This document shows positions 318 to 63,796 of a stretch of 64,000 nt of DNA, one piece after another. Source of the DNA: Antedon bifida (lineage: Eukaryota; Echinodermata; Crinoidea; Comatulida; Antedonidae). Each line of letters begins with the position of its first letter. Position 1 is the stretch's first letter. The notes beneath the pieces are model-generated. The model made no database searches, was not told where the DNA came from, and worked only from the letters and a program-made list of their open reading frames with translations. Both the position numbers and the translations under genes were made by a program. Location: the NCBI GenBank assembly GCA_963402885.1, contig OY727103.1, positions 8,966,501-9,030,500 of the forward strand, in the 5' to 3' direction.

Positions 318-463
318 CCTATGCGTTATATAGTAGTCCAATTGACCAGCGTAGTCCCATATGCTAGTTATTTCATTTGGAATACTCTCTGAATCATCAC
401 TTCCTATTTTACTTCTTATAAAATCTTCGAATTTGTTCCAGAGGCTCCGGTTTTCATTGCTAT
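318..463 (-). other. Exon of copy 1: Roc G3 motif
   Basis: 146 bp, phase 1 in, phase 0 out, ending ACGCATAGG before GTATGC. It encodes 48 residues plus the split Asp, and contains IWDYAGQLDYYITHR, the Walker B/G3 signature of Roc domains. Copy 2 has the same exon at 62307-62452 with one amino-acid difference (Ser to Asn). Confidence 0.88.
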
Positions 464-3400: not shown

Positions 3401-6400
3401 GTTGAAGTTGAAACAAAATTCATTAAATACTTTTAATCCATTACATCCAACATGCAAGGTTAACGAAGTGAAATTATCAAACTAGTTGATGCAAATCAAT
3501 TTTAAAAAGCTTTAGATTATACAAATTCAAGAGAGGCAACCAATAGTCAACATAATACACGTATACATTTACGTTAAAAAAATTGATTAATAATGTTACC
3601 TTATGTTAACACATATTATTCGTACCAATTGTATTTTGTTTACCTCTCTCTAAGCATGGACTTTACGCAGCTTGTCTTACCAGCACCTTCCTTCCCAAGA
3701 AACATACATCTTGAATTCACAACTGCAATTTTACCATCTTTCAATTCATCTTTATATATCTTAGTAGCTTCTTTACCCATGGCAAATATTTCTGGAGGAA
3801 CTAGCAGTTCTAATTATAAAAAAAAACCGCATAACATACATGTATAATTTCGGTTTTCGAATTCGTGGTTTTATGTAAATGGATATTTCTAATATCGAGA
3901 ACCTTTTTCTCTTTAAAGTTAAAACAACTTCAATTTTAATATAATGTTTTTAACTTACTGTCAAAATACTCTAAAATCATGATTTGTTTTGTTTTTTCTA
4001 TTTGCGTATTTTCTTCTAAAACAGATACTGCTGTTTTTCCTTCCTATAAACATAAAAGTATATTAGATATCTAGGTCATTCGCGTTCTAAACAATTTCAG
4101 CCCACTTTATTAATCATACACGTCAGATGTGTTATATGCGCGGTTCTGGTTAAATTTGGTTAGAACCAATTGATTAAATTTGATGATTCTGGAGTGATTC
4201 CGATGATGATGTAGCCAAGTGGGAAGCTATTTTTAGTATAGCCAAGAACAAGTATTTGCTTTCGAATGTTGTAAGTTACATCACACCAAAACATTACATT
4301 TTTAAATATGGGGTAAAAAACAGATAAATAAACACAATTTCGCCGTAAATTTAATATAGAATGACAATTCTTCCAATTTGTAGCTCCGCGTGGTACGTGT
4401 TTACATCAATCACGTGACCAAACTAATATTACGCCTTTCTTGCCTTAGTAAAAAGTAATAAAGGTATGATAAGCCTGATAATAATTAACTATCATTACCA
4501 TACACTATGTACTATTTAATTACTAAATTAAATTTAAACATAGTAAAAATTCCGTGAATACGTTTTAAAAGCTAAATATCTTCAGATAAACTTAAAATTG
4601 AGTGCAGCCTTCCATACAAAATAAGTGTGCCCTCAATCAGGTAATAACTCAGGCAATAATAAACTACGTCTCTTCAAAGGTAACTAATTCACGCAATAAA
4701 GTTATAGTATTTATAATTAATGTTAACAAAATGATGTTGTTTTTAACTGTATTTGCAATCAAGTTTGAAGTAACATTTAATGAAAGGCATTTTCGTACTA
4801 GTATAGTGTACATGCATGGTGCATGGGCGACGTAGTCAATTTGCTAGAATTTTGATTATATGTTTTTGAGGAAACAAATAAATAAATAATACACAAAAGA
4901 AATTGAAATAAAAGGTTTTGCTGGTGCATATACTGTAAACGTAGACCGACTTATATCAATTGTCTTTGTATTCCTTTAGTTTGCAATTTTACTGAAAAAA
5001 GAAAGTATAATCGTGTAGTTTATACATACAGGTTAATGTGAACATTGCTTTCTGTCATGATTCTAAAATTTAATTCTATTTTATAATGACATGTATACAT
5101 AATACATAGTTAAATTAATAATTTCATTGCTAAAATATACCAATCTCGCAAAAACTGTAGGATCTTGTTTAATTACTAAATTAAACAAATATGTTTGCGG
5201 CGCAGATCATACGTACGTTAGGTGTAATCATATCAATTATTTCTAGTCCTATATTACCTTATTTAGTGCTGTTACGGATGTACCTTGCTTCGTGAGATAG
5301 TCTACTACTTCTAAGGTAGGTTCATTCGAACGCATGTATTCATGCAGCGGGGTGTTTCCGTCCTTTAAAGAAAGTATAATCATGAAGTTTATACAAACAG
5401 TGTATTGCAGCAAATAATTATAGTTAGATATTGATAAATAATACACAAAGAAATTGAAATAAAATGTTTTTCTGGTGCATATGTTGTGAACGTAGACACA
5501 CTAGTGATCTGGTGTGTGTTCGAGTTCCACCCAAGAATTACACAATGTTAGATTACGAGAATATAGGCTCACTCTTATGTACATTACCTTATTTTGTAAT
5601 GTTGGAGATACACCAAGTTTAATGAGATAAGTCACTATTTCGAACGTAGGTTTAACATATATTCCACTTAGATGTACATGTAGAGCATTTGTTCCTTCCT
5701 AAAAAAAAATGTTATATTTTTAATAAATACATATTTTTCTGCATTATGCAACATGGATAACTAAATCAAATTTATCGAAAGGAGTTAAAATGTTTAAATA
5801 TACCAAGATCAGTTGCATAATGTTAATAATAATTAAACAACATACAGTACATTACCATCTTACATTTGAAGGTAATAATATGATGAACAATAAAGAAGCA
5901 AAAAAAGAATCTTATTAAGCATACGTACTATTACCAGTATGCTATATTTCAATTTACATTTTTTTGTCGAATTATCTCTTTTGTTAATGCGGGTGATACA
6001 CCTATGGTTATCAGACAGAACAATATCTCTAATTTAACATCATCACGCTCCAGATAAATATGTATCGGTGTGTATCCATTCTGTGAAGAAGTCATAAACA
6101 TCAAATATAATGTGTCTTATAAATAACTTTTGGGTTGGGTCAACCAGCTCCGCTACAGTGATTTAGTTCACTTAGGTTGACCTTTTTTTTGTTATGTATA
6201 TTGAAATAAACCGACTAAATAATAAAATGAAATACTGGTATATAGGCATAAAGTAACAACTGAAAACATAAATACTCATACTCTATTATTTGGCTTGGTG
6301 AAATGCGGTAAGAAACTCTGAAAGTTTTAGATAACTTGATAGTTTGATCATTTATATGGAAATTTGAACCGGTAACGTTGAACTGAATTTGCGGACCAGA

Positions 6401-15400: not shown

Positions 15401-17816
15401 TGAGGTCATAAATGGAATAGAGATGTTTGCTGGAACCGATAATGTTTTATTAATACTGGCATGATATACCTATTATTGTATGTTACCTTATTTTGTGATG
15501 TTACTTGTGCGCCATTTCGTATGAGAGAAGCCACTATTTCTGTTGTAGGGTTGGCATATCGTAAATACGTATGTAGTGGAGTGTCTCCAAGCTAGAAAGA
15601 AATCATAACCATGTAGTAGTAAATATCAATTCCAGCTGTAATGTAATCATATATTTCGGTCATGCCACATTGATAATGGTTGTAAATTGTACATTGTTAT
15701 GACAAAATCTTCTGAGTGTACAAAACAATAAAAACCAGCTAAATTCATTCGTACATTATTTACCACACATAGCTTGTTACATAGCATACCGTACTGACCA
15801 ACGTCAACGCAACAGTCTACTTGTCTACGCCTTTATAAAATAGGACCCAAATAAAATAGTTCAAGAGTTGATTTTTATATTATATAAACCAACTTAAACA
15901 GACTAGACAGATAAATTAAAGTGCTACTATAATTGTAATACAATGTGTGAATTGATATTAATTGACTTTATGCAATGTAATATTGTTTCTAAAAATACAT
16001 GTCGGTTATGGCATGTCTTCATTTCTTGTTTCATTCAATATCTGCTTCTAAAATTCGCAATAAATAATTCAAAATAATTAATATTAATTATAAAATACAT
16101 ATGAAATAGAGATGTTTGCTGGAACAGATACTGTTTTTATAATAATTACATAAAGACCACTATGATTGTGTGTACATTACTACATGTTGTGATGTTACTG
16201 ATGCGCCATACTATGTGAGACAAGTCACTATTGCTGTTAGAATATCGCAAATACATATTATAGTGTAGTGTCTTCATACTAGAAAGAAGTCATATTCATG
16301 TAATGTATTCATATTGTTTTGTTATGTTAAATTAAGACCCAATGAAATTAGTTCAAGAATAATAATTATATTCTAACCAGCTTAAAAAAAAATAGACAGA
16401 TAAATTGAAGAACTACTATAATTGTAATACAAATGTGTGAATGACAATCGATTATATGACGTCATAATTGGCGAGACGCACTTAGTTATACCATGGAATA
16501 ATTGTTTTTACAAACACATATCGTTCATGGCATGTCTGCATAATATAGTTTTTAATTAATTTATTTTTTATTTAATAACTGTTTTTGAATTTGCAATACC
16601 TAATTCTAAATAATTCATATAATTATAAAAGAGACGTCATAAATGGAATATAGATGTTTGCTTGAACCGATAATGTTTTATTAATACTAGCATAATAGAC
16701 CTCCTAAAATTGTATGTTACCTCATTTTGTGACGTTGCTGATGCGCCGTGTTGTATGAGATAATCCACTATTTCTGTTGTAGGGTTGGACCATCGTAAAT
16801 ACAAATGTAGTGGAGTGTTTCCATTCTAGAAAGAAATCATAATCATGTAGTTTATAAATATAGATTACAGGTGTAATGTAAACATGTTTTTTATTCATGT
16901 CAAATTGACAATTGTTGTAAATTCAACACTGTTATTATATGACTAAAATCAGTTAAATTTATACTACGTTTAATAACATGTTAATCTTACAAATCATGAA
17001 AAACAAAAGCACAAACAAACAGTTATTGTACAACCCTGAAGTAAATAGTTGTTATAACTATAATGATAAGCGAAAAAGTGAATACATAGTTGTTGTTGTC
17101 GACTGTCAAAGAAATGTTAGTCTACTGTAGTCACTATTATGAATTATCTGTATAATTATTTCGAAAAAGTCTTACTAGATTGGATGTAGATGAACTCAAT
17201 TATGCTCTTGAAGTTTTTTATTCACATACACAAAATGGGCTCTTGACTTGAAACTGTCATTCTGACCGTCTACCTAATCGGCCAACCCTCTACAGTAACT
17301 GTACACACCGATCTCATTATTTAAAACAAACATTAACAATAGGCCTAAGTACTGATTAATATCGTCACTAAGTTTATTTAATTTGCAACATTCGTCAATG
17401 AAGCATGTGTTATTGATCCAGGGTATTATACAGTAATCATTACATTTGAATATAGGCATAATGAATACAGTTTTACAATTTACATACATGTAATGGTCTA
17501 GGCTAATTGACTAACTAATTGAATGAAAATAATTTGTTATTAGTAATATGGGAGTCCTATCATTATTTTGTCTTACCCAATATTTGGTTTTCAAAATATC
17601 TGGCTTTCTTTTACATATTTCTTTAATTTGTTGCAAGTCATTATTCTCGAGTGCATTTTCTAATCTGTAACTGTAAAGGTAAAGGATATAACATGAATTA
17701 CATCAATACATTAACAAAATAATGATACCTTTGTTTATAGTCTCGTTCGAAAATGTATTTAATATTCGTAGGCATATAGTATTGTTTATCTTCAACTTTA
17801 CAACTCACCTCCACAT
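318..17816 (-). CDS. Ankyrin-Roc GTPase (Roco family) gene, copy 1, 5' part
   Basis: Multi-exon gene on the minus strand. Proposed coding exons are 17809-17816, 17577-17670, 16721-16825, 15487-15591, 5958-6080, 5588-5698, 5258-5362, 3959-4043, 3644-3809, 3286-3383, 1112-1180 and 318-463. All have AG acceptors and GT donors, phases join without a break, and the total is 1,215 nt (405 codons). The product starts with an ankyrin-type helix pair, then about five ankyrin repeats with TPLH-like cores, a degenerate cap repeat, a Walker A motif (GKEGAGKT), a switch I-like STDGI and the Roc G3 motif WDYAGQ. The rest of Roc and everything downstream lies beyond the left edge; the paralogue at 50970-63796 shows what follows (COR and a DED-like pair). 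Such proteins are expected to be cytosolic GTPase scaffolds. The start (ATG TGG AG then GTGAGT donor) is the weakest part: an upstream exon cannot be excluded. A 9.4 kb intron (6081-15486) is full of transposons. Confidence 0.78.
1112..1180 (-). other. Exon of copy 1: Roc linker helix
   Basis: 69 bp between TGTACAG and the donor GTATGT. It encodes about 23 residues, mostly Lys and Glu with a KKMRENALAKK stretch, predicted helical. The protein sequence is identical in copy 2 (62990-63058). Confidence 0.8.
1402..3277 (-). mobile_element. 5'-truncated CR1/L2-like LINE inserted in copy 1 intron
   Basis: The boundaries come from the paralogous empty site: copy 2 reads straight through AATCACATTATCTTTACC at 63291-63308, while copy 1 has about 1.88 kb inserted there. 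The element is antisense to the window. Its 3' end, at the low coordinate, is a short A/TAA-rich tail. The endonuclease region is missing, so it is 5'-truncated. No clear target-site duplication is visible. It sits eight bases inside the intron, leaving the GTAAAGAT donor intact. Confidence 0.9.
1597..3277 (-). pseudogene. LINE reverse transcriptase remnant
   Basis: The main open frame (1597 to about 3060) contains reverse transcriptase blocks in order: NNYRPISVLP, a VFIDSRKAFDTV block (first catalytic Asp region), HGIPLGPLLF and YADDSTLF (catalytic YADD), then a thumb and C-terminal region ending in a basic segment. The upstream part (about 3060-3277), with a NAYNDYF motif, lies in another frame, so there is a frameshift near 3055. 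The Gly-rich block before GPLLF looks about three residues short compared with the usual QGS-containing motif. The block pattern fits the CR1/L2 group rather than L1 or RTE. Judged dead. Confidence 0.85.
3286..3383 (-). other. Exon of copy 1: Roc switch I (STDGI)
   Basis: 98 bp, AG acceptor ACAATAG, donor CG|GTAAAG. It encodes EPSTDGIVTATVFKATG; STDGI is a typical Roc segment between the P-loop and G3. Copy 2 (63308-63405) differs at three residues, two of them Lys to Glu. Confidence 0.85.
3644..3809 (-). other. Exon of copy 1: Roc P-loop
   Basis: 166 bp, phase 1 in and phase 2 out. It encodes an amphipathic lead-in and then MFLGKEGAGKTSCVKSML, a canonical Walker A (GxxxxGKT) of a Roc domain. 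The matching copy 2 exon is 63631-63796, with one Thr/Ile change. Confidence 0.9.
3959..4043 (-). other. Exon of copy 1: capping ankyrin-like repeat
   Basis: 85 bp, phase 0 in, phase 1 out, donor ACA|GTAAGT. It encodes EGKTAVSVLEEN then a basic stretch and MILEYFD, resembling a degenerate last ankyrin repeat before Roc. No counterpart is visible in copy 2 before the right edge. Confidence 0.7.
4046..5257. other. Intron of copy 1, no further feature seen
   Basis: AT-rich intronic sequence between two supported exons. Only short frames are present and I recognise no transposon. Confidence 0.6.
5258..5362 (-). other. Ankyrin repeat exon of copy 1
   Basis: 105 bp, phase 0-0. It encodes 35 residues with DGNTPLHEYM, EVVDYLTKQG and a closing ALNK: one ankyrin repeat, one exon. 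Confidence 0.88.
5588..5698 (-). other. Ankyrin repeat exon of copy 1
   Basis: 111 bp, phase 0-0, donor AAG|GTAATG. It encodes 37 residues with EGTNALHVHL and EIVTYLIKLGVSPTLQNK, a slightly longer ankyrin repeat. Confidence 0.85.
5958..6080 (-). other. Ankyrin repeat exon of copy 1 with shifted donor
   Basis: It encodes NGYTPIHIYL and ILFCLITIGVSPALTK. At the place where sister exons end in AAG|GTAA, this one reads AAAGAGATAA, with no GT. A donor AAT|GTAAAT 15 nt further on keeps phase 0 and gives a 123-bp, 41-codon exon. It may be functional with a five-residue extension, or be decaying. Confidence 0.65.
6090..6893. other. Intronic stretch, nothing recognised
   Basis: Sequence between the 5958-6080 exon and the Harbinger terminal repeat. 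It has no convincing coding or repeat feature. Confidence 0.5.
7189..8956 (+). CDS. Harbinger Myb/SANT-like DNA-binding protein, 3 exons
   Basis: Exon 1 (7189-7439, Met in a MAATKRKPNW context) encodes a helix-rich Myb/SANT-like domain: NWKDEEKEVLVSEYGKRKK, a TQAWEEIT helix and NILCRRLWVQKR, ending at a GTAAAA donor. Exon 2 (about 8347-8536) carries an acidic, Pro/Ser-rich linker ending at GTAAGT. Exon 3 (8744-8956) joins in phase and ends with a charged coiled coil (KIKEERDKIKLEKEVLLLKK) and a stop. In known Harbingers this protein takes the transposase to the nucleus and binds the ends. The exon 1 to exon 2 junction as I read it is out of frame by one, so there is either a different splice site or a frameshift. 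Confidence 0.7.
8991..9283 (-). mobile_element. TTAA-flanked miniature element, copy A
   Basis: It is flanked by TTAA at 8987-8990 and 9284-9287. The right end reads GGGGGACAATACATCT and the left end is a degraded complement. Its body matches copies at 11934 and 32660. It is nested in the Harbinger. Confidence 0.75.
9712..10746 (-). CDS. HARBI1-type DDE transposase
   Basis: An intact 344-residue frame; I chose the Met of MAAHFFLIERALRRER (10746). A helix-turn-helix-like region (SEISQPTVSRIIWRVT, about 90-106) precedes the DDE_Tnp_4 nuclease core. The catalytic residues are visible: Asp147 in VVDGTH, Asp222 in LGDSGY and Glu258 in CIVENVIGVWKRRF. The length fits the roughly 350-residue family. 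The protein would excise and insert the element together with the Myb-like partner encoded at 7189-8956. It has no internal stop or frameshift, so this copy could still be competent or recently active. Confidence 0.93.
   Translation of the reverse strand: MAAHFFLIERALRRERVILDRQNPLEKWNETELYMRFRMNGAGLRELTHLLLADLTSPSKRNQPVPPILQVCTTLRFYATGSFQSVCADVSEISQPTVSRIIWRVTDSIIQNVFPRVVRFPNNADIVRIQQEFYEISGFPGIVGVVDGTHVKIQSPSEHEEVYVNRKLFHSINVQVVCDAKLYITNIVARHPGNAHDARIWRESALGEQFARGDRRGIILGDSGYPCLPYLMTPISHARNRGEERYNAALKHTRCIVENVIGVWKRRFHSLHAELRVTPAKCFQIIAATAAIHNFAKARRMPDIFNDPLNHYQQPPHIPLPDAEGANMNGRLARQRLVEQFFNQ
11205..11590. repeat. Tandem duplication upstream of the HARBI1 frame
   Basis: Two direct copies at a spacing of about 258 bp: ACTAATTTGTATGATGAAG at about 11213 and its variant at about 11469, each followed by an AACCAAACTTC segment and CCTAGGCTGGTTA. 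The second copy is preceded by a sequence like the transposase start region (GCCATCTTCCACGAAAATAA near 11401, compare 10743). Confidence 0.7.
11934..12165 (+). mobile_element. TTAA miniature element, copy B (right end lost)
   Basis: TTAA at 11930-11933 is followed by AGATGTATTGTCCCCAAAAT and a body like the copies at 8991 and 32660. I see no right terminal repeat, so the right boundary is approximate. Confidence 0.6.
12321..12649. mobile_element. piggyBac-like miniature element
   Basis: It is flanked by TTAA at 12317-12320 and 12650-12653. The inverted ends CCCTTTGAAGA and TCTTCAAATGG match at 10 of 11 positions. It is 329 bp, with no coding capacity, and contains a short GGTC tract near 12531-12555. 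TTAA with short inverted ends fits piggyBac or Kolobok. Confidence 0.7.
13140..13900 (+). pseudogene. Gypsy-like pol remnant
   Basis: Two pieces are recognised. At 13158-13412 there is a frame with FVIGVVPSLPVSGVNIIL, resembling the C-terminal part of a retroelement aspartic protease. At 13480-13880 a broken frame with LGFSPFELLYGQTV and then MKRMFDRKEENRGF resembles the integrase C-terminal region of Ty3/Gypsy elements. The reverse transcriptase and RNase H that should lie between are missing, so there is an internal deletion, and stops interrupt the integrase part. No LTRs were found. Confidence 0.6.
13901..15486. other. Intronic stretch, nothing recognised
   Basis: AT-rich. Around 14780-14900 there are several imperfect palindromes of the CGAATCGATATTCG type, without other support for a function. 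Confidence 0.5.
15487..15591 (-). other. Ankyrin repeat exon of copy 1 (duplicated unit 3)
   Basis: 105 bp, phase 0-0. It encodes LGDTPLHTYL, TTEIVASLIRNGAQVTSQNK. Flanks from about 15290 match those of the exons at 16.2 and 16.7 kb. Confidence 0.87.
16188..16283 (-). pseudogene. Dead ankyrin pseudoexon (unit 2)
   Basis: It is clearly the same exon as those at 15487-15591 and 16721-16825, flanks included, but shorter, with in-frame stops soon after the TATGAAGACACTACACTA start and no AAG|GTAA donor (it reads CATGTAGTAATG). Splicing probably skips it. Confidence 0.8.
16721..16825 (-). other. Ankyrin repeat exon of copy 1 (duplicated unit 1)
   Basis: 105 bp, phase 0-0. It encodes NGNTPLHLYL and TTEIVDYLIQHGASATSQNE, the best-conserved ankyrin repeat of the gene. 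Confidence 0.9.
17577..17816 (-). other. First two proposed exons of copy 1
   Basis: Exon 17577-17670 encodes LENALENNDLQQIKEICKR, typical of the first helix pair of an ankyrin domain. Its phase needs two bases from upstream. ATG at 17816-17814 followed by TGGAG and a GTGAGT donor supplies exactly these, with a 138-nt intron. An unseen upstream exon remains possible. Confidence 0.55.
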
Positions 17817-40788: not shown

Positions 40789-41271
40789 CTAAGAAATCTC
40801 CGGTTTCACTGACGCTAGAGTTCGAGTGCGGAGCTCAGTACCATACCTTTGCTTAACTAACTTAGGAAGGCCTTTGTGGATGAGAGAGAGCCAAGTAAGA
40901 ACTACCAAATTTTCCAATGAGGGTGAAAGTTCTTCGTCCTCCTGTATTTGGGCATCATGGTGGGAAATGCCCCCGTCTTGACGTAGTAAATTATCATGGA
41001 CGAAAGCAACTAAGCGCTGATAGAGATCTTCCGGCCTTTCATTATCTTGTAAATGTATATCAGCAAAATCTACCTCCTCATTGTCGTCAGTTAAGCCGCG
41101 AAGGGGGGATGCCCTGGTTTTGGGACGCCAAACAGAACCATCTAGGAGAAATGGGGCAAAATTTGCATCAAGTGAGAGTGTGTAGATAAGGTTTTGCTTC
41201 CAGTTTTCGAATGTATTTATAGTTTCATTCTTGGTTAAGCACCATTGCTTGGGTGCTCTAGTACCGGCCAT
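40789..41271 (-). pseudogene. Retrotransposon Gag (N-terminal part)
   Basis: Met at 41271 in a CCATGG context. 160 residues with a [18 protein letters not shown] capsid-like start and a [10 protein letters not shown] segment. It ends at an in-frame TAG (40791-40789). The same frame continues after the TAG with a zinc knuckle (CPIC, then His and Cys) and protease, so the stop either separates Gag from Pol or is a nonsense mutation. Confidence 0.75.
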
Positions 41272-41472
41272 GGTAAGAAATATATACAGAAGTCTAGGTG
41301 TTGTCAGTTGCACGTGTGAAGCAACAGCCGATCGGCGCCTGTGAAAGCGTAGAGTATGTGATGATATGCTAGCTCGATTTGTTGGGCTAGGCCTACAAGA
41401 TTGGGTAGGCTACTCACCAGTACTAGTCGAATAATGGTGGGTGGGCTCGTAATCGTATAGCTGCCACCACGT

Positions 41473-46231: not shown

Positions 46232-46312
46232 ATACGATAAGTACTTGTTGCTTAAATACATCAGTAACACCCTATCGTAAATTATTAGCTGATAAGTAAC
46301 GCTACCTTATTC

Positions 46313-50969: not shown

Positions 50970-51472
50970 TCATCTTTTCAACACGTCCTTCTCAACCGAT
51001 TCAAGTTTATCTTCACTCAGTAACCCGCGTGATTCCAAATCCAAAATCAAACTCCACCTGTCTTCATACTTCTTAAGAACAGGGAAGTTGTAACGTCCAT
51101 CAAGAGTTTTCATATCTGAGTCACTGAGACTTTTTCCCAGATTAAACAGATTTATGGTATGTTGTGAAAATGACAATGTAGATTGGGTCTCAAAACCTTG
51201 AAAAAAGGGAAGCTTATTTTTAACCATGTCCTCAAAGCCATTTTGTTTAGTTATCTGTATTGTGTCATACAGCACAGACAGATTTTGTCGACTCAACAGC
51301 CCAGAATCAGTTAACAGTGCTAACAGGTCGAATGTACTGGTAACTCTATTCATCGCATCAAAGTCGCCTAGCATTTCTTTGAACAGAATTTTCAGTCTGT
51401 TAAGGAGTTCACGTTCATCATACCATTGTGCAAACTCTGTAATTAACTGTTTAAACTCATCGTCCAAAAGAT
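50970..51472 (-). other. Last exon of copy 2: DED-like tandem domain
   Basis: 503 bp, phase 1 in, TGA stop at 50970-50972. The first half has the six-helix DED pattern: ELLNRLKILFKEML, DLLALLTDSGLLSRQNLSVL, DTIQITKQNGFEDMVKNKLP. The second half repeats it: LFNLGKSLSDSDMKTL, WSLILDLESRGLLSEDKLES. The GLLS motif in both halves is typical of DED helix 4-5. A death domain or CARD is a less likely reading. Such a tandem would recruit FADD or caspase-8-type partners, if it is a true DED. Confidence 0.65.
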
Positions 51473-54400
51473 CTACATAGTTAAGTAAAAAAAAAATTAC
51501 AATATTATGTAATCAATACAGTGGAATGGTTAACATGAATATAATCACTGTTGTCACTTGCTTTAAGATTATGATTATATCACTAAGTAATTAAACACCA
51601 CGTTGTATAGCATACTGTACACTTTATAGTAAACATTATATTATTTTGCATACATTTATAGGACTCTAACTTTATGAGTAACAGTATCATGGTAATTAAC
51701 AATTATTTGTCATTATCGTGTTATTCATTATCATGACCATAGGTATTGCATTGTAATCTTTATTTAGGTCTACTAGTAAGTTACCTTCACCTGGATGAAA
51801 TCGGTGACTCGATGATGCGCCTTCAATTTCGTCACTATTGCCTAAAAAGTAACAAAATGATATGTTAATTTATATGAATTTATTAAACATGGCACAGAAT
51901 GTTATCAATTGTTATATGTAAACAAAACACTCATATTTACAGTTATATGTTCTGTCCATAGGCATAATATCCACTTAATCTAAAAAGTTACCACAAATGT
52001 AACATACCTGGATAAGAACTTGATGCTCCAACAACATCTGCAACAAATACAATTCATATTGTCAAAAATCAATATTACAAAAACAATACATATTATAAAT
52101 CATAAAATCAATGCAAAGGAAAAAAATATGAAAAAAAAACCCTTAACATAATAACTCAATTCGTAAAACATATTCTTTTTTCTAAAATAAGTTTTAAAAC
52201 ATGTAGAGCCCCGTTAATAAAACAATATTTATGTTTATAAGGTGAGAGTGTGTAGGGCCGCAACGCAACTCGTAAAATAAACACGCGCAAAACGTAAAAA
52301 TTAACACAAAAAAGTCTTAAAAATTAACGCTTTTTTAAAACGAAATATGCTTTAAAACGTATAGAGCCCCAATAGTAAAATTAACTCAAACGTAAACATG
52401 AAAAAAACACTTAGAAAATGATATTATGAAACATATGATCACTACAAACAGCTAGATTGTAGGTCTGTTGTAATTACTAGCAGACAAAGCCAACTACTAT
52501 GCTTTGGGTAGTATTGTTATCTTAGTTATTGAATTGTAGAAAAAAATAGGTTATGTTATTATAAATTTAAACAAACAATCTTTAATTAGAAATGTAAAAC
52601 ACTAATGTGAAAAAAAATGTGATTGTTAACAAAATGCATACTGGAACAAAAAAGAAAGAGATTGAAATAAATAACATATTGGATTACAGACTATAAAGGT
52701 GTGTTATTAAAAGACTATTTAAAACTTCTGCTAGTCATAAATAGTACTATTATAGTTACATGCATGTCCTGGAGATGGCGTAATTGTTCACATCCCCACC
52801 CACCCCATTATCTTTTAATGGACGATGCACAGAATTGGTTTGCATGAAGTTGATAAATAATTAAAAATCACTGTTCGGTTGAAAAAATTTGCATTGTCAT
52901 CGTCATCATCATCATCATCATCATGACAATAACTATATCATTATCTTTATCTACTGGTAATTTACCTTCACTTGGATGCCTTTTGCGACACAGTGGTGCA
53001 CCTTCGCTTTCGTCACAATTGCCTAAAATTGATCAAGTGCGATGTTACTTTCAACATTATTGTAATTATCTAAACGTGTTCTATATTTGCACGCAATTAT
53101 TTATACGTATCACAAAATGCTTCATTACAGTTCCCTGTTATGTTCTGTTGATGTTTGAAAGTGAGTTCTTATTGAAGAAAGTTGTACATTTTAATTAATA
53201 ATCACTTTATCTAAACCAATACCATAATGAATAACATACCTGAAGTTGAACTGAATGCTGCAACAACACCTGCAACAAATAAAAAATACAATAACCATTT
53301 CCAGAAATTGCAGATTATTTGTGTTACATTATAATGATTAGGCATATACTGATCTGAAACCACAATTTTAGGTATTCTTAGTTACCTGCTAAATAATACT
53401 GCTAAATAATAATTATACTCAGTGTCTTATCAGAAGAACAAAGACATATGTGAAGGAATTCTAAACACTGATGAATGTAAGAACACGTTATTTTAAATGA
53501 AATCTAATAAGGCAGTGATGATTTATGAAACGTTTTGGAATTCCATTGACACCCTATGTAATGCTTTTAATTTTTATTTAAATGTCAATTATCAGTTTTC
53601 GCAACAACAAAGGAACAACAGAGGAATAATCTCTTGATTGTGCAAATATGGTAAAACAAGCTTTCAAAAGCAGGAGACCGATAATGCTATTGCTAATAAA
53701 TTAGAATTAATAGTTGGTGACGTAATAGATACTGATCAGAAATGTTATATTAAAGGAAGCTTCGCTGGTGAAAACAAGACTTGTTGAAATTTTACTAGAA
53801 TACATAGATAGTTTTAATAAATAAATTGACATTTGGTTTAGTTCAGGAACCAATACAATGGGTTGAGACTATCGATTACAACGAATGATGGATCATTAGA
53901 AAGGATTTTGTAAGAATATTGGTATTATACAAGGAAATGGCTATAAATGTACTAAGAAGCAACTGTAGGTTAACATTGCTCATACCTTTGGCTGTAGATA
54001 AAAACAAGTAGGCCTATTGAAACTTATTTAAATTAAGTTTGCAGGTTATATATAATATAATACATTTTCAACCAAAAATGAAAATCAAAGGAATGTTTAT
54101 CTTCAAAACGTTATGTTTGTAAACCATTTGGAATACAGTTTGTTGATGACCCTGTACATTCTTTTGTATTTTTTATGGTTATGATAACAAGAAATGCCAC
54201 AAAAATAATTGGGTTGAAAAGATCGAAAAAAATGGGGAAAAAGAAATGTTAGTATTTTGGTAAAGTAGTGGAAATTTTAACTTTCGAAGCTAGTTTACAC
54301 TACTGTAGTATATTAGATGTGCCCACAAAGATAAAATGTATAGTATTATTTGTAACAGAATGAGAAAAAATAATAATAGGAATTACTGTATGTTTCAAAA

Positions 54401-57400
54401 AATTAAAAACGGGGGAATAAAATTAACATGAATTATTGTAGTAAAATGGTTTTACCCGTATCATGTCATGTTCAGAGACATGAATGGGATTTACATTTTG
54501 CGACGACCCAGGATACTTAAAAAGTAACCTATGTAATGGAAAGGTAGTAGCAGACAAGTAAAATGCAGGTGCTGTTTATTGTCTCTAGACATAATAGGCC
54601 TACTGGACGATATAGTATTCAACAGGAGCAGCTACACTATATTTAATGTCAAGAGCCAGATTGGATGGCAGAGGATTTGTTCATCTCTTGAGTTATGTTA
54701 ATCAGTGATTTTACCCAAAAATAAGCAAATTAGAAGCAATGTGTCTTTTATTTGCTTAAAAATATAAGAGGTTGATATGATGTATTGTGTGCCTTCACAA
54801 AATATTCTCAACAGTCCACACAACCTTTGTTTTGTAGAAATCGTAGAGATTTTACATATTTTATATGAGAAAATTTACCAATATTATTGTATCCTGTGTG
54901 TATAACTATTGTATAGTAATTAATGGTAATATCTGTATTGTATATTGAATTTAAATATTGATAGTACTATTATTTCAATTACCTAACAGCTTACAAATGT
55001 TTAGTGACAGATTAGCTCTCACGGACACAGTATCTGAGTGACAAAGTTGTAAGAGATATATACTCTTTTGCTAAAAGAACAAACATCTTAGTTTTTGAAA
55101 TGAAATACAGGGGAACGATACCTGTATTATTGTTAAACTCTCAATGAAATAATATAGCAGCTCTTTAAAAGATTAAAATGTAAACCGATAACGTCAATGG
55201 TATGTGATGCATAACTGAAACACTTCTGCTAGGCGCCTGTCATTAGACTCATAATTTTTCAAACGAGGTTAAGTTAATTTTGTAGTGTGTTGTTGATGTA
55301 TTTATCAATGGTAATGACGAATAAAGATGATAAAAAAGATTGAGATTTAATTAAGATGAGGTAATTAAATTGACGAAGGAACATAAACAGAAAACAAATT
55401 TACCTTTAGAAAAATATCGCTTGATATGAGCTGTATTCATAGTCGTATCTTCTCCACATGGAACTACATCATTCTTCAAACACTTTTCAAGGTCAACTAA
55501 GTGATGTTCCTTTGGATTACAAGCATCGCATACCACACGTAGCTTGTAACCACTACCTTCGTATATGGTGCATACGGTTTCTAGTTGGTCCCTCAAATAA
55601 CTTAGTACCTGAACACATGGAAGTGGTGTAAAATATTACATTTAATTTACAATTATATTACACTTTGTTTGGAAGTGTTAATATCATGCATTATAATGAT
55701 TACCTCCATGCAAACACTCGGTTGCAGTTGTCGTTTCTTTGGTTTGGTGCCACCAACTTCTGAGTTATAACTCTGTTCTGTCCTACGATATATTTGAAGC
55801 TATTAAGTAATAATAAAAAAGTAAATGTTTGTTGATGAAGCCTTTCTTTCTTTATTAAAGATGTGTAAACCTCATTTGATAATTCGGTTGGTTGATTTGT
55901 GTTATTGTAAACGTTATTTTAATAGATATGTTAAGTTGGTAGTTATAGGTGCGTAGTGCAAGATGCGCTATGCAATCATATACTATAAGTAATAAATAGA
56001 CCATAGATTCTAATTGATCTTGTATTTATGTATATGCTACAAAAATAATACCTTAATTGCGTGTGGCTTTTCATTTTGACGCTTAATGTGTACGGCACCT
56101 AAACTGACTTTGTGATCTTTAAATTCAAAATCACTACGATTCCGGAACACCTGTGAATCATGACTATCTGTACCCGTCATCAATTCAAAAAATGCAACAA
56201 CTAAAGTGTGGTACACAGCCTCAGGAAGAAAGTCTGTTGGAGTCAGGTAAATGGATACCATCTGCATGTCATCTTTTGTCACTTCTAGACTAGTATTTGT
56301 ATAAACTTTCATTCGACATGGAACCAAGAATTCACGGTTACCTTCTTGTACCTGTTATTGTAAACATTGATGTTTGCATTTAAATGATTACACATTATTG
56401 ATGAGTGCTTATAATTATTTATTTAATCAATTGATACACATAATACGTACCCCCTTCTTCTCATAAAGCAACCGAAACACCCTCATCACTTCAATGAATA
56501 TGTCGAAATGATCTCGGTTTTGAGTTTTCCATAAATAACGTAGTAACTTTTCTTCAAGAATACCTTCTTTGTCAAGTCTTTTCAATAGCGTCTTCATTTC
56601 CCTCTAAGTAAGTAAGTAAGTATACACAATAATTACTACAAATCACTTCACAATTGAATACTCCAGTTGCCAACAAACTAGAATTTACATTTTATCTGTT
56701 TTGTTTACTATGATACTATGATTACTATGATAATTATTATGATTTGTCTACTTACATCTTCAATATCTGGTGGAAATACTGTGATCACAGTTGTCAACAT
56801 CTGGATCATCGTGTGAAGATTAGTTATTACTGTGTTTCTTAATTTCTTGTCTTTATTGGAATACATAATCTTTCCAATGTCATTCATATACCTTATGGCA
56901 ACGATGATCGCTTCTTCGGCAATTCCACATTCAGTGCAAATTCGAGAAGCCTAATAAAAATGAACATTTTATTAAAACGATTTTTTACCAATATATTGAC
57001 GAATAAGTAAATATAAACATTGTGATAACAAACTACAATTGTATTCATTATAAATGTAATTAGGTCTACACTTCTAATTACTACAATGCATAGTTTCCTA
57101 TTAAATGTTATAATGCAAATAGGGGAAAAATAAAAACAAAATTAAACAATTAGTAATATTATAATAATAACCACAAGGCTTATTTAACATTAGATTATAT
57201 TGATTTAAGCATTAGTTAGTTCATTAGTTTATAGTTTTTGATACGGCTCATATTGTATCAATTTCTGTATTTGAATGTATGATGATGATTCGTTGATATT
57301 TGGTTGTCACGCGTAAGTTGGTTAAGGTAACAGCATTGTGTTTTGATGTATTATTTATATATTTTTAATTTTTTTCGCAAAAACAATGGATAGTTTATTG

Positions 57401-60400
57401 TGTTATTAGGAGGGCGTAAATGTTTCACTTTAATACAATTATTGTCTGGTATATTAAAGCTCGGGAGCTAACGAAGTACTACTAAAGCTTAACTAGACTT
57501 AATTCGTCACTATGACGAATTATAGGTTATATGCATTGATTAAAATAAAGATAATTGATTTGTAAAAGATATATTGATTGATTGATTTTCTCAGAATGAA
57601 GAAATAACTACAAGGGAGACTGAATAAGTAGACGTACTGTAGGTTGTGAAATAAGAAATAGTATGATAAATACTTATGCTGCACTGTGAAGTGGACTAGA
57701 ATAGTGAAATTATTGTGGATTGTCTGCGGAAAATATAGTTATGCAACAAAAGTATAAGATTGTATATTATGTCTGAGACAACAATATCCAAAGAGATTGA
57801 AAACTACCGTGATCGGCATCGGCAATGAGCTTAATTTTTAGTTAAGATCAGTGATCCGTGAAGAAGGTTTCACCGATGAATGCACATGAATCCTTGTGAT
57901 CAACGGCTGGTAATTAAGGTAATGCGACGAAATTGGGCATAAACTATCGGAAAATATATTGATTAAAATTAATACGTAGTGTATATTTTTTTACAAATTT
58001 ACACACAACATAAATAAGTTAAGCTTCCCCAGTTTATTCAGAGTATACATATTTAACAATACATAATATTTATTTCTACTGATACTGTACAAGCAATGTT
58101 AAATACTACTAAAGCTTAATAATAAACTACATTTTGGCCTCTTGGGGGCTACCACTCATATGACATCGCTGTATTAAAGGTCCAGTGTGTGGTCACAGGA
58201 GCCAGTAAATCAAATGGTTGTTATTAAGTATTTATCGGTAAAGATTTAAGTAAATTGTGGAATTTAAAGGCAAAATAATTCCCCAGAATTATACCAGCCA
58301 AATAAGCGAATAAAATGAGTAACATATGAGTTGCGCCTGTGTTGAAGTTAGGTGTTGGATGATGCCGGGGGATGGCTGGGTGGGTAGATTGAAAGTTTGT
58401 ACAACTATTGAACGGCTAATTTAACAATGAAGTGTGCTAGTATGCATCTTAGTAAACAACTAAAAACACCCTGAATTGGTTGCCAATTAGAAACTAGTCT
58501 ATCCTTCATTTTTGTGGTTCTACTATTAGATATACCCGTTGGTCTACAGAAATAAAGTGTCAATAATAACTGTGGTTGGAACTTTGATAAAGTGTCTCCC
58601 TTGACTAACATTCACTTCTTTAATTACCATTTAAAAACAATATACCATTCATCCTTCTATTACTCTGAAATCTACCCACATTTATATACCACATCCTTAG
58701 TTAAAAGAAAGTACTTGTGCTGTGTATAAACTATAATTTATTACTTTAAATTTCCTTTAAAACAATCGAATTAAAAATTAATACATGCAGACGAAAATCG
58801 ACATATTTAGCTATTAATTTGATACGTGGTACAATAATATAATTAATGCGGTAGAGATTTTCTTTTAAATGTGATACAATTAAGGAGTGTATTTGGCAAA
58901 GCCTATAAAATAAGTAAAACAATCACGTATTCAAAATTAGGTTTTTTAAATAAATAATAAGAACCGAGAAAAATAGTTCTACTATCATACTAAAAAACTA
59001 CACTGTTTTTTCTACAGTGTCTTTTAGAGGAATTGCGAATCTCTCAAATACTTGTGTTTTTAGTTAGCCGTTATAAAATGATACACTATCATCTAACAAA
59101 CTGTTGGTATCTTGACGTGGTCTTCGAGTCCGACTATTCTTGAACGGACACGTGATTTGAATAAGAATGAACTCACCAAGAGGGAAATGGTAGATCAAAA
59201 GAAAACCGACATTTAATTATAATCCTTTTCCTTGGATATTGTTGTTTATTTTATTGTTGTTATTTTATTGTTGTTTATATGTAAAGCTCATGTTAGGTGC
59301 ATCTAACTAAGCTTAAATATTTGTGCACACAATAATTGCCATCACATATACGTAGGAATGGTATGACATTGATATTGATATTATACCATGGAAGCACAAT
59401 CAAGATTTACCTCATTAAAGGAAATGCACAGTCTTGTTTTTCCAATTGCTTGCAATCTTTCCTGAAAATCAAGCCACTTTAGAGGAATGACCTTCGTCCC
59501 TATTACATTCATGTATCTAACAACGTTTCTCTTAAGTTTCTCAATACCTTCGTGCGATTTCACCGTGTTGTTGACCATGTACATTTCACGATCTACATGT
59601 TCGGCATATTCCATTCTTTCCATTGTAGCAAAAATGGTCTTATACATATTTTGAACCTTCAAAATAATAACGGTACAGGTATTAATATTATTACAGTTTA
59701 CGTTTATAAAAAAATTAATACGTTTTAACTTTAATATATTGCAGTGTGTGTTTAATGTTGCCAACTATGCGTACTGCTAAAGTCTGTCAAATTTATAAGA
59801 TTCAATGTTTAATGTTGTTTCAGTGGAATACTATTTTTAATTAGGAAATCGTATGTACATGTACAATATATGCCTAGCGGTCCAGATGATACGAAGCTAG
59901 ATAACTGATATTACGTGAGATGTCCTATGTCGATACACACTATGCCTACAACCACGGTCGTGTCAATACTAAAATAAACTCTACATTTATCTTAATGCAA
60001 CCGTTTGGTTGTGATGCGCGAATACAGTATTATTATACAGTTACGGGGTATCGTGATTCATTTTAAATAAGCATCTACTGGTTCATTACTACGATTGAAT
60101 TGAAACACTTTGTGAGAAAGAGATATTTTCGGACACACACTATTCAAGCTAAAGGAAACGTTGTTGGCTTAACTTGAATTAGTCAAGTCAAATGGCCGAG
60201 CGGTTAAGGCAGGGGCGCCGTTTACCGTACCTAAAGACATAAAAAAAAAATTGTGTAAAGATAATGAGTCTAATAACATGTTGATAAGTGCATAAGAGCA
60301 AATTCGGCAAATAAAAATAAGAATAGTGTCAGTCGAACACAATTCTATTTTAAAAATTAGAGAGGGCGTAATTTCAACCTCTTCAATTTGGTCGCCACGA

Positions 60401-63400
60401 GGTTCAGACCTCCACATTTTGTAAGTAAGACATTTAATCTACCCTCCGGCCTACACCCTCTTACATAGTTTATATTCTATAGGGCTATTTTTTCTCGGAT
60501 GCGATGTTGATTTCAATGTATATGTGATGTATGTGTATTATTGTTTCAGACGTATCTTAGTATCAAAAAACTGTTGACATTTCATTTTAGTGCATTAGCC
60601 TGCAACACAAAACATTCATTGAAACACCTATCATTTTCTTATCGTTATCATTATACACGTTGTTGTTTGAAGAAGCACTAATATAATCCCGGCACTAATC
60701 AGTACTTAATTACACTCTTTTTTTCTGATATTATTATTTCTATTGATGTGATAGATGTGTGCTGATTATTTCCATTTTCTTGGAAAACCGTTACCCAAAC
60801 GCATAACAGTATATATTGATGATTTCTAAGAACTCATATATGTATACAACATTTGTCATTCTCCCGAAAAAAAAACCCCCAGGAATATTATTTTTGATAA
60901 TAGTGTAATATTTATTCTATTATACATCGTATCTGTGTATCTTGTAATACTCAACGTTATGACCATTGCTCTTCATATTATATTAATTATGTTTTTACAT
61001 ACTGCTACTTCAGTAAAACACTGCTATAAAACTAATAGACCGAAATAATCAATATATATTCATAAATCTTTATATTTCATTATTTTATTGTGGCTATTAC
61101 CTCTTTTAGCTTTTCTGATTTTGTCCCTGGCAATTTGTCTATATGAGTAGCAACCAAACTGATGGGAGGCGATTTTATCACTTTGCCTTCAATTGAAATG
61201 GTGTTTCCTGAAGCATGTTGTACCACAGTATGTTCATATACTGACCTTACCCAGAACAGAATGATGTCCAAATTAGTCATTCCTAACGGACCCTAAATTG
61301 AAATGTAAAATAGATTTTAAAAGGATATAATTATACTGTATTATTTTATATAATCAACGTAAATTATATAAACAATATTCTAATATTAGATTTTGATAAA
61401 ATGAGCATAATATAACGTACAGTACTTGGTGAACCTACCAATGCTGGGTTTCGTGCTTTAGCTAGTTCGTCTAATTTATCCATCGCACTAAACGCAACGC
61501 AGTACGATGCTGTATTTGTGAGGAAAAACTGAAAACAAAAAACATTGTAATTGATGTATATAACACTTTTGGAACATCATTTTGGCGGCTGGAGCATTCT
61601 CTACCTGTATGGAGGGCAACTTGTGGTTAATACTACTAACGCTATACACATGTAGGTTGTTTTAAATTCACTTTTAATTTGACATTTTCACTAATACAAA
61701 ATCTTTTTTATGGTATGTGCATGGTGGTCTATTCGGCACCTATGGACGGTCCGATTATGAATACAATTAAATGAAAAATGCTCCAAACGCCAAAATAATA
61801 ATGTATTAATGATGAATATATGAATGGTTGATTGGTAAATGTTATCTTATGTAATGTTAAAAAGATAATGATGATAATGCTATATTCGTTTCATTGCAGT
61901 GCAAAAAACGCAAGTACGTTGTGAAAGATACGGACAGCGAGATTTACGTAATGCAATATTTATATAACAGCATTGTTAAATAGTTAAAAAGATGTCATAA
62001 AATGTACATGTGTTTGTCATTAAGCTTGTGTTGGCACACGATATAATTATAATAATGAAGAATTATTCATACTGAAACTATAAGGGGATGGTTACGTTAC
62101 CGCAGAAAATGTTAATATAGATAGCCATCACCGCACATAATTTTTCAATTTAATACGTTTGTATGGAATATACAATTACGGTAACGGTAATATCGATATT
62201 ACGCCTGCCTATTAATTTTAGGGATAATGTCAAATGCAATGTACATCCTATTTACATACTTTAATAATACTACTTATATTAATAATTAACATATTGATAA
62301 GCATACCCTATGCGTTATGTAGTAGTCCAATTGACCAGCGTAGTCCCATATGCTAGTTATTTCATTTGGAATATTCTCTGAATCATCACTTCCTATTTTA
62401 CTTCTTATAAAATCTTCGAATTTGTTCCAGAGGCTCCGGTTTTCATTGCTATCTATTGCAGGAAAAACAAAAACACATGTAAACAAAAGAATTTGATCAC
62501 TTTCCAGTTTTTCAGGAATGCTTGTTTTCTTTAAATGTTAATTAGATATACATTTTTTTTTGGGAGGGGGGGGGGAGGAGGAATCATATTTGGTTGTAGA
62601 CACCTACATACATGTTTCGAGAAGCATTACCCATCAGTGTGAATCTATTTTACCCTCTTTATATTATGTCAAGTTTTTTTTAAATACTATCCTATGATTT
62701 ACTATTGCCAGTACTTTTCATTTGTATTTTTTTTTAATGTCATGTTTTTTAATTTTAATGTCACGTTTTTTTAATGTCATGATTTTAAATTGATATTAAT
62801 CATGTGATTTTTTTTTATCTTTTGGTGATCCTAAATAAAACTTTTAAAGTTCACCATTTTTATACTACCGTCTAGGTTTTATTCCTTAATATCCAATCAT
62901 TAATCTACAGTTTCGTTTATCATAATTGATAAATGAAAGGTGAATACATTCAAATGTTAACAAGCTTCCATTATTTTTGCTGTACATACCCTGTTTTAAC
63001 TCTTTGTCAACTTTTTTTGCTAATGCATTTTCACGCATTTTCTTGGTTAGCTCAGAATCTGTACAAATAAACCAATTGGTAAAAAATGAAGATCGTATAC
63101 AAAGATGTTGTTTAAAGTTTATCAGAAAGACGGAGTTAATGTTAACATGTATCATGCCTATTACTACGTGATGTCAGTCATTTAAGCATTCACACAACGC
63201 GGTGTCTATTTCTGACACAGAGTTTATCAATGTTAAAGAAGTATAACTAAGGATGATAAAGGAAGCAACACAAATATTTACAGTTCGGTTAATCACATTA
63301 TCTTTACCGTTTTCCTCTTTAATCTTCTTCCATTTACTCTCTCCAGTTGCTTTAAACACGGTAGCTGTAACTATACCATCCGTCGATGGTTCTTCGGGGT

Positions 63401-63796
63401 TGAATCTATTGTAAACATGTACGTTGAAGTTGAAATACTTTTAATCCATTACATTCAACATGCAAGTTTGACGAGGTGAAATTATCAAACTAGTTGATAC
63501 AAATCAATTTTAAAAAGCTAAAGAGGGAACCATTAGTCAACATAATATACGTATAAATTTACGTTGAAATAATTGATTAATCATATTAGCTTATGTTAAC
63601 ACATATTTGTATAAATTGTATTTGTTTTACCTCTCTCTAAGCATGGACTTTACGCAGCTTGTCTTACCAGCACCTTCCTTCCCAAGAAACATACATCTTG
63701 AATTCACAACTGCAATTTTACCATCTTTCAATTCATCTTTATATATCTTAATAGCCTCTTTACCCATGGCAAATATTTCTGGAGGAACTAGCAGTT
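50970..63796 (-). CDS. Roc-COR-DED-like (Roco family) gene, copy 2, 3' part
   Basis: Exons, high to low: 63631-63796, 63308-63405, 62990-63058, 62307-62452, 61439-61528, 61101-61292, 59411-59656, 56756-56950, 56451-56603, 56052-56351, 55704-55799, 55404-55608, 53240-53269, 52966-53022, 52008-52037, 51785-51841, 50970-51472. All junctions are GT-AG, phases agree throughout, and 876 residues are encoded in the window. Order: Roc P-loop (GKEGAGKT), STDGI, G3 (WDYAGQ), FFLTNTASYCVAFSA, G4-like (VATHIDK), a linker with IPLKWLDF, COR, an acidic/Ser-rich linker, and a C-terminal DED-like pair. The 5' exons (ankyrin in copy 1) lie beyond the right edge. DAPK1 shows a related ankyrin-Roc-COR-death order; a DED-like end would be a variant. 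Expected role: GTP-controlled dimeric scaffold in death or immune signalling (inferred). Confidence 0.88.
51785..53269 (-). repeat. Duplicated pair of micro-exons in copy 2 linker
   Basis: Exons 53240-53269 (30 bp) plus 52966-53022 (57 bp) encode VVAAFSSTS and NCDESEGAPLCRKRHPSE. Exons 52008-52037 (30 bp) plus 51785-51841 (57 bp) encode VVGASSSYP and NSDEIEGASSSHRFHPGE. Identical lengths, phases (all 1-1) and order show a tandem duplication of an exon pair, with about 1.2 kb period. Confidence 0.85.
52038..52965. other. Intron of copy 2 with a TCA microsatellite
   Basis: AT-rich; (TCA)n at about 52903-52924. No gene was recognised. Confidence 0.6.
53510..54700 (+). pseudogene. Tx1-clade LINE ORF2 fossil in copy 2 intron
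   Basis: Pieces in several frames match ORF2 at 46313: TFWNSIDTLCNAFNF, then CYIKGSFAGEN (against GYIKGPFSGEN), and later a degenerate ASLHYCSILDVPTKIK (against SKLIYNASIIDVPNHVI). Many stops and frameshifts show an old insertion, antisense to the host gene, between exons 55404-55608 and 53240-53269. Confidence 0.75.
55404..56950 (-). other. COR-domain exons of copy 2
   Basis: Five exons: 56756-56950 (AIRYMNDIGKIMYSN), 56451-56603 (GILEEKLLRYLWKTQNRDHF, then VMRVFRLLYEKKG), 56052-56351 (GNREFLVPCRMK, a YLTPTDFLPEAVYHTLVV helix), 55704-55799 and 55404-55608 (Cys-containing, VVCDACNPKEHH). The pattern of a helical DIGKI segment, LxxLW, and LVPxxM matches COR, the dimerisation module that follows Roc. 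Confidence 0.8.
56951..59410. other. 2.5-kb intron of copy 2, nothing recognised
   Basis: AT-rich with only short frames. It separates the Roc-COR linker exon from the first COR exon. No transposon signature was recognised. Confidence 0.6.
59411..59656 (-). other. Exon of copy 2: end of Roc and linker to COR
   Basis: 246 bp, phase 0-0, 82 residues. It includes MYMVNNTVKSHEG (a G5-like position) and KVIPLKWLDFQERL, the Roc-to-COR junction typical of Roco proteins. Confidence 0.8.
60193..60413 (+). other. tRNA-like A-box fragment in copy 2 intron
   Basis: TGGCCGAGCGGTTAAGGC at 60193-60210 is a very good Leu/Ser-type D-arm with box A. The nearest box B-like word (GAGGTTCAGACCTCC, about 60400) is 200 bp away, and no cloverleaf can be built. 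It is probably a tRNA pseudogene or an old SINE head in the intron 59657-61100; the rest of that intron shows nothing else. Confidence 0.45.
61101..61528 (-). other. Exons of copy 2: middle of Roc, G4
   Basis: 61439-61528 encodes FFLTNTASYCVAFSAMDKL, and 61101-61292 encodes LDIILFWVRSVYEHT and ISLVATHIDKLPG. THIDK is the G4 (N/THxD) position that reads the guanine base. Both are phase 0-0. Confidence 0.87.

Follow-up and report, generated by a model that had tools for sequence, protein, structure and literature searches.

The window analyzed here is a stretch of 64,000 nucleotides from the crinoid Antedon bifida (contig C16, OY727103.1, 8966501-9030500; the assembly has 27 contigs and totals 315.6 Mb), which carries on its minus strand two related genes of the Roco type, referred to here as copy 1 and copy 2. 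The flanks were also fetched, and positions in them are given in window numbering (negative below the window start, above 64,000 beyond the window end). Copy 2 is predicted to join ankyrin repeats, a Roc GTPase domain, a COR domain and a tandem death effector domain (DED) in one continuous gene. Within the window it comprises 17 exons, from 63796 to 50970, that form a single frame of 876 amino acids ending in a stop codon. Rebuilding this frame from the DNA recovered 17 AG acceptors and 16 GT donors, and the same reconstruction bore out the coordinates, strand and lengths that a preliminary description had assigned to both copies.

The frame of copy 2 opens with the Roc exons: the P-loop exon with GKEGAGKT (63631..63796), the exon following the P-loop (63308..63405), two exons inside Roc (62990..63058 and 61439..61528) that flank the one with DYAGQ, a G3-like DxxG motif (62307..62452), and an exon with THID, which is G4-like (61101..61292). 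THxD replaces NKxD in Roco proteins. The end of Roc and the start of COR-A share an exon (59411..59656), followed by two COR-A exons (56756..56950 and 56451..56603), two in the COR-B region (56052..56351 and 55704..55799) and one in which COR-B probably ends and which has a stretch containing Cys and His (55404..55608; weak COR-B match, E 0.073). Splice sites delimit the Roc and COR exons, and Pfam alignments additionally cover those at 63308..63405, 62307..62452 and the five from 59411..59656 to 55704..55799. The linker consists of a duplicated pair of exons of 30 and 57 bp, the first at 53240..53269 and 52966..53022 and the second at 52008..52037 and 51785..51841, each with AG/GT sites and in frame. 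The last exon (50970..51472) has a phase 1 acceptor and encodes the tandem DED and the stop. As the linker and tandem DED exons all begin in phase 1, a different tandem DED tail can sit behind nearly the same GTPase.

The profile search suggested in the preliminary description, run on the 876 residues, matched COR-A (4.3e-18) and Roc (7.8e-10) above the Pfam cut-off, and COR-B (0.0083) and DED (0.0032) below it; a 301-residue piece of copy 1 matched Ank (1.8e-8) and Roc (8.2e-7). By sequence, the nearest solved structures come from bacterial Roco proteins (3dpu, 8e-12; 6hlu, 1.4e-10; 8r4b, 2.1e-10; 4wnr, 1.4e-6), and the Roc domain of LRRK2 comes next (0.0036). With Roc followed by COR, copy 2 is by sequence a Roco protein, which would bind and hydrolyze GTP and dimerize. 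Pfam scans of the 876 residues, the copy 1 piece and, again from copy 2, an N-terminal piece of 169 residues gave no protein kinase and none of the LRR, C-terminal kinase or WD40 domains that are traits of LRRK proteins. Similarly, no NACHT or NB-ARC ATPase was found in the Pfam scans, and no caspase domain in the 876 residues, the tandem DED exon ending with the stop.

Copy 2 extends upstream past the window end. Its last ankyrin-side exon is at about 65.2 kb, the ankyrin exons themselves spread over 67.5 to 106.3 kb, and at 107 kb there is an N-cap exon with an ATG exon just ahead of it, the latter read by eye in the flank DNA. The whole gene would span about 56 kb, and the predicted product sums to 1,709 amino acids. 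In the array, AG and GT sites bound 22 ankyrin exons, three of them poor matches (39-42%); four more ankyrin-like matches lacking such sites were left out of this number. By type, their order is AAABABABAACDCDECDCDEEE, compared with ABCDE in copy 1, where the five ankyrin exons, located by hand, begin in phase 0 and are multiples of three in length. Being phase 0-0, ankyrin exons can multiply while the frame stays open. A third array lies at -56 to -72 kb and has 20 exons. The ratio of nonsynonymous to synonymous substitution rates (dN/dS) is 1.61 for type A (n = 6; window 99-107 kb and 16.7 kb), with the changes at few repeat positions and the value given without a significance test; it is 0.31 for type C, 0.79 for type D and 0.49 for type E. 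Since ankyrin, Roc, COR and tandem DED exons all occur in the copy 2 model, a single predicted gene holds the whole order. The preliminary description had obtained this order by treating the two copies as complementary halves. The order itself stands, but it is all in copy 2, whose ankyrin exons sit outside the window (65.2-107 kb), and copy 1 was not seen to end in this tandem DED.

The DED assignment, the least certain domain call in the preliminary description, is upheld together with the others by profile, fold and paralog evidence. The last exon alone matches Pfam DED at 2.2e-5 (25 bits, below the Pfam cut-off of 35.9). It aligns with all 20 fetched paralogs, and the DED profile matches 21 of 21 aligned tandem DED exons at E values up to 0.1 (best 1.7e-10). 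Against the window exon, dN/dS is 0.25-0.57 in 20/20 pairs, and it is below 1 in all 25 tandem DED pairs computed. Given the alignment of every paralog, the uniform DED matches and these low ratios, chance does not explain the resemblance. An in-phase acceptor lies at the same place of the exon in 18 of the 20 paralogs. Structure prediction for 50970-51472, also proposed at the outset, modeled the six-helix death fold in tandem, with the tandem DEDs of caspase-8 as the top fold matches over 156 residues. A single C-terminal death domain of the DAPK1 type was not found, a tandem DED being present instead. The D/E-RxDL charge triad, a DED motif (PMC3877032), was sought as R.D[LIVMF] and occurs in 0/21 tandem DED sequences. 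On contig C8 (14.38 Mb; locus L055, minus strand, 7436-8023) a 196-residue frame resembles another tandem DED (Pfam DED 0.002, under the cut-off) and lies about 0.6 kb ahead of a tandem DED exon of the window kind, possibly giving four DEDs in one small gene. The window flanks hold four more divergent matches to the tandem DED profile, at 155751-156383, 160354-161049, -29432 to -28782 and -52614 to -51961.

Genome-wide, family members were counted as exons, not genes, in six-frame searches that scored limited numbers of candidates, so that the numbers are lower bounds. With the window exon at 63631..63796 as query, at least 145 Roc P-loop exons were found (150 scored of 212 candidates), and with that at 56052..56351, 102 COR-B exons (all 141 candidates scored). 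Pfam COR-A gave at least 122 matches (150 scored of 248) and Pfam Roc of any kind at least 149 (150 scored of 299); merging COR-A and COR-B places within 6 kb leaves at least 161 loci. For comparison, the literature gives at least 17 ROCO genes in Trichoplax and 37 in Ectocarpus (PMC4104024). The best 150 of 525 tandem DED candidates were listed, of which 148 are without stops and two have them; the COR-B family match at C16:8346663 also contains a stop. Caspase-domain matches (28 of 36 scored) are fewer than tandem DED exons. At least two copies in tandem had been noted before, which understates the cluster: 14 Roc P-loop exons, 87-100% identical to the window exon, lie between 8.13 and 9.35 Mb of C16, all on the minus strand, and behind each of them, no more than about 11 kb away, comes a COR-B exon. 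Among the matches listed for the whole genome, a COR-B match lies downstream at 8 kb or less for 61/145 Roc exons and on the wrong side for 1/145.

On C10 (23163492-23255205), a one-strand cluster of caspase-domain matches encloses a COR-A match at 23192629. Two intronless Roco frames of about 965 amino acids (L015:2-2896 on C15 and L017:313-3216 on C8) have a split Roc, with the P-loop near residue 60, a long insert and then DFAGQ near residue 475; COR-A matches them weakly, below the cut-off. Their insert contains six or seven strongly hydrophobic stretches by the Kyte-Doolittle scale, the only measure applied, and a membrane region within a Roc GTPase, if true, would be very unusual. On C15, many frames of similar length with Roc matches form two tandem arrays (13.46-13.55 and 17.2-17.33 Mb), two frames having been read.

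Copy 1 has 12 exons encoding 405 amino acids, from the ATG at 17816 down to 318. Its first coding exon (17809..17816) and N-cap exon (17577..17670) lead straight to the ankyrin exons, not to a kinase: A (16721..16825), B (15487..15591), C (5958..6080), D (5588..5698) and E (5258..5362), all phase 0-0, and F, the last exon on the ankyrin side (3959..4043), which passes from phase 0 to phase 1. The Roc exons follow, namely the P-loop exon (3644..3809), two further exons (3286..3383 and 1112..1180) and the exon with DYAGQ (318..463). Where copies 1 and 2 overlap, they share 154/159 residues and differ at 8 of 477 nucleotides. The DNA aligns in three blocks, which include introns and have 89-97% identity, pointing to a recent segmental duplication. 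Below the window, the Roc-COR part of copy 1 runs on to about -7.1 kb. About 0.6 kb past its last COR exon there is a divergent Roc P-loop exon, 47% identical (-7938 to -7738, L010), and beyond it come pieces resembling Roc and COR (-11 to -16 kb) and a tandem DED match (-28.8 to -29.4 kb). With this divergent Roc exon behind its COR exons, copy 1 is not usable as an N-terminal half for the C-terminus of copy 2; the order suggests either a product with two Roc-COR units or a truncated neighbor, and copy 1 may read into the divergent neighboring Roc gene or be truncated itself.

Transposon-like frames and repeats lie in and around the copies. A non-long terminal repeat (non-LTR) reverse transcriptase element (1402-3277) sits in the copy 1 intron just past the donor of the exon at 3286..3383, within about ten bases of the splice site; the donor is intact, and the element is absent from the matching place in copy 2. 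Around ankyrin exons A and B of copy 1, a segment (15271-16935) is duplicated threefold, and the middle exon copy looks degenerate. An open frame of 1,242 amino acids at 46289-50017, with endonuclease- and reverse transcriptase-like sequence and no internal stop, is probably another non-LTR element. The frames at 9712-10764 and 7168-7443 presumably represent a Harbinger-type transposase and its Myb-like partner, two overlapping frames at 18866-20769 a piggyBac-type transposase, and several frames at 36794-41409 a retroelement of the LTR type, all these names being assumed from resemblance. Finally, a satellite-like repeat family is common to 22.8-31.5 kb and 42.2-43.9 kb, about 75-93% identical.

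At short range, COR and tandem DED exons are linked at several loci. Among the best 150 of 525 tandem DEDs, a COR exon lies within 5 kb upstream in 7 cases versus 0 on the wrong side, and a spacing of 4.2-6.2 kb was found at eight loci. For the 145 Roc exons, a listed tandem DED lies downstream versus on the wrong side in 0 versus 5 cases at 8 kb and 12 versus 7 at 15 kb; in copy 2 the Roc-to-tandem DED distance is 12.7 kb. The tail differs at the DNA level between one pair of C16 cluster members. At C16:9.34 Mb (L058) the Roc P-loop exon is identical to that of the window, and most of the stretch corresponding to window 56232-52918, with COR-B, introns and a single linker exon, shares 85% DNA identity with copy 2. 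Past that block only short matches of 67-71% are found, and the tandem DED is 32% identical to that of copy 2. Between the linker and tandem DED exons of this locus (minus strand, 3461-3901) there is also a frame of short, VPEVAPVH-like peptide repeats. On C7, tandem DED exons 87-90% identical to that of L040 sit 10-19 kb downstream of two kinds of Roc exon, 78% or 40% identical to that of the window, with no COR listed in between where the Roc exon is of the 40% kind; four of these Roc-tandem DED spacings are nearly equal, so that they probably reflect one event. The tail exon looks like a portable terminal module, with Roco genes as one of its users.

We read copy 2 as a member of a large, recently duplicating animal Roco family, with the order ankyrin-Roc-COR-linker-tandem DED, that acts as a sensor or scaffold for DED assembly, and give this reading a probability of about 0.6. 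Expressed as a single transcript, its ankyrin array would bind a ligand or partner inside the cell, GTP-dependent opening or dimerization of Roc-COR would bring the tails together, and the clustered tandem DEDs could seed a DED assembly recruiting DED caspases, FADD-like adaptors or other tandem DED proteins, leading to cell death or immune signaling. The preliminary description had proposed an expanding immune or cell-death family; the tandem copies are borne out by the 14 Roc exons on C16, and the role may be of this kind. The parts of the family look interchangeable, as if for home-grown cell-death or immune switches, and at least one gene unites them in a single predicted protein. As a tentative extension, possible but held with clearly less confidence, the family might be one more modular set of cell-death receptors, evolved alongside NLRs and Toll-like receptors, with well over 100 Roco proteins in which variable ankyrin arrays (each repeat on its own exon, and one type with dN/dS above 1) and variable tandem DED tails are exon-shuffled around a near-constant GTPase, convergent with the shuffled LRR-ROCO genes of brown algae and allowing combinatorial pairing of recognition with a DED partner.

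Several points weigh against the reading of copy 2 as a GTPase-driven assembler of DEDs. The joined gene is a prediction from genomic DNA with a presumed single transcript, and GTP binding, DED assembly and caspase recruitment are properties expected of a predicted protein. The COR-tandem DED counts lose their contrast with the wrong-side control as distance grows (13 versus 3 at 10 kb, 16 versus 9 at 15 kb, 19 versus 11 at 25 kb); taken with the 7 versus 0 at 5 kb, the short-range linkage is real and the long-range counts say little. Counted from the Roc exons, 19/145 have a listed tandem DED within 25 kb downstream versus 8/145 on the wrong side. In the C16 cluster a listed tandem DED lies within 17 kb of 4/14 Roc exons, with a fifth at 31 kb and a sixth carrying the divergent tandem DED of L058, the list used being the best 150 of 525 candidates. 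The tail change at L058 could be a deletion joining a neighbor's tandem DED, or fast divergence, and not exon shuffling; shuffling, such a deletion and unequal crossing over would all yield its pattern. Five other tandem DED exons lack Roc or COR homology to copy 2 in the 5.8-8.7 kb upstream, and 16/150 listed tandem DED exons have a listed COR within 15 kb, as would be expected if Roc-COR and the tandem DED exon were separate adjoining genes and their joining an artifact of prediction. We consider this quite improbable, given the continuous frame over the COR-tandem DED joint, the in-phase acceptor shared by 18 of 20 paralogs and the recurrent spacing at eight loci.

Other readings accept the joined protein and differ on what it does. 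The tails could act as dampers that, like cFLIP and viral FLIPs, cap or divert DED assemblies as tandem DEDs devoid of a caspase, restraining caspase-8-type signaling or feeding other pathways instead of killing. The small number of caspase-domain matches relative to tandem DED exons leaves room for damper or decoy tails, but the top fold matches are the tandem DEDs of caspase-8 (though fold shows no function), and a GTPase-driven assembler would better fit a trigger, which makes a damper rather unlikely. Roles in the cytoskeleton or membrane traffic are known for other Roco proteins (PMC4104024), and the tandem DED might then be an oligomerization handle on an ordinary scaffold; by analogy, a family this large, with ankyrin repeats added exon by exon and tails that change, looks more like a recognition or signaling repertoire, and we regard the scaffold as improbable. 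That most copies are dead repeats spread through segmental duplication would agree with the transposon-like frames in and around them, the stops in some family matches and the copy 2 ankyrin-like matches with no usable splice sites; it is highly improbable in view of the nearly stop-free tandem DED exons and their dN/dS below 1 in every pair computed.

Compared with known systems, the combination of ankyrin, Roc-COR and tandem DED, as well as the change of tandem DED tail, was not found in the open-licence literature searched. Caspase-8, cFLIP and vFLIP share with copy 2 two DEDs in tandem, with the fold match noted above, and differ in the RxDL motif, which is absent from the copy 2 type. In these proteins the tandem DEDs precede a caspase domain or stand alone. 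DAPK1 has ankyrin repeats ahead of Roc. Like copy 2, it combines Roc-COR with a C-terminal death-superfamily domain and has no LRR (PMC6337361), but its Roc-COR is preceded by a kinase and its death domain is single, whereas copy 2 has two DEDs and no kinase in the parts scanned. Trichoplax likewise has an expanded Roco set with Roc-COR and death-fold domains, for which the text consulted names CARD, death, TPR, LRR, AAA and Ras-like domains and not a tandem DED with ankyrin (PMC4104024). The TIR-ROCO and MyD88-like ROCO proteins of Aplysia also fuse Roc-COR to innate-immune adaptor domains in an invertebrate, with TIR, LRR or a MyD88-type death-like domain in place of the tandem DED (PMC9334734).

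NLRs with death-fold domains follow the same logic of repeats, an NTP switch and a death-fold domain, as in the DED-NACHT proteins of amphioxus, sea urchin and Nematostella (PMC2575513); they have a STAND NTPase where copy 2 has Roc-COR, and copy 2 has ankyrin repeats and the reverse order. The bacterial AP-GTPase (Roc-COR) conflict proteins share a GTPase-COR core with a variable C-terminal domain of at least 24 kinds (PMC8195603), in contrast to copy 2 bacterial and with an N-terminal LRR, the tail variation here lying within one domain type. A link in trans between a Roco protein and cell death has a precedent in mammalian LRRK2, reported to reach the extrinsic death pathway through FADD binding (PMC5823876). 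With the DED module built into the predicted protein, the effect of Roc-COR on an output domain would be directly testable, with DED assembly as the readout. Roco proteins with death-fold domains (DAPK1, Trichoplax) and shuffled one-repeat exons before Roc-COR (brown algae) are already known (PMC6337361, PMC4104024, PMC11378527). The brown algal LRR-ROCO candidate immune receptors resemble copy 2 in having one repeat per exon, shuffled repeat exons before Roc-COR and a large clustered family (PMC11378527, PMC4104024), and differ in having LRR instead of ankyrin and no DED. If tails and ankyrin arrays truly shuffle around a constant GTPase in A. bifida, the family would be an animal counterpart of this exon-shuffled ROCO repertoire and would add a large branch to invertebrate immunity.

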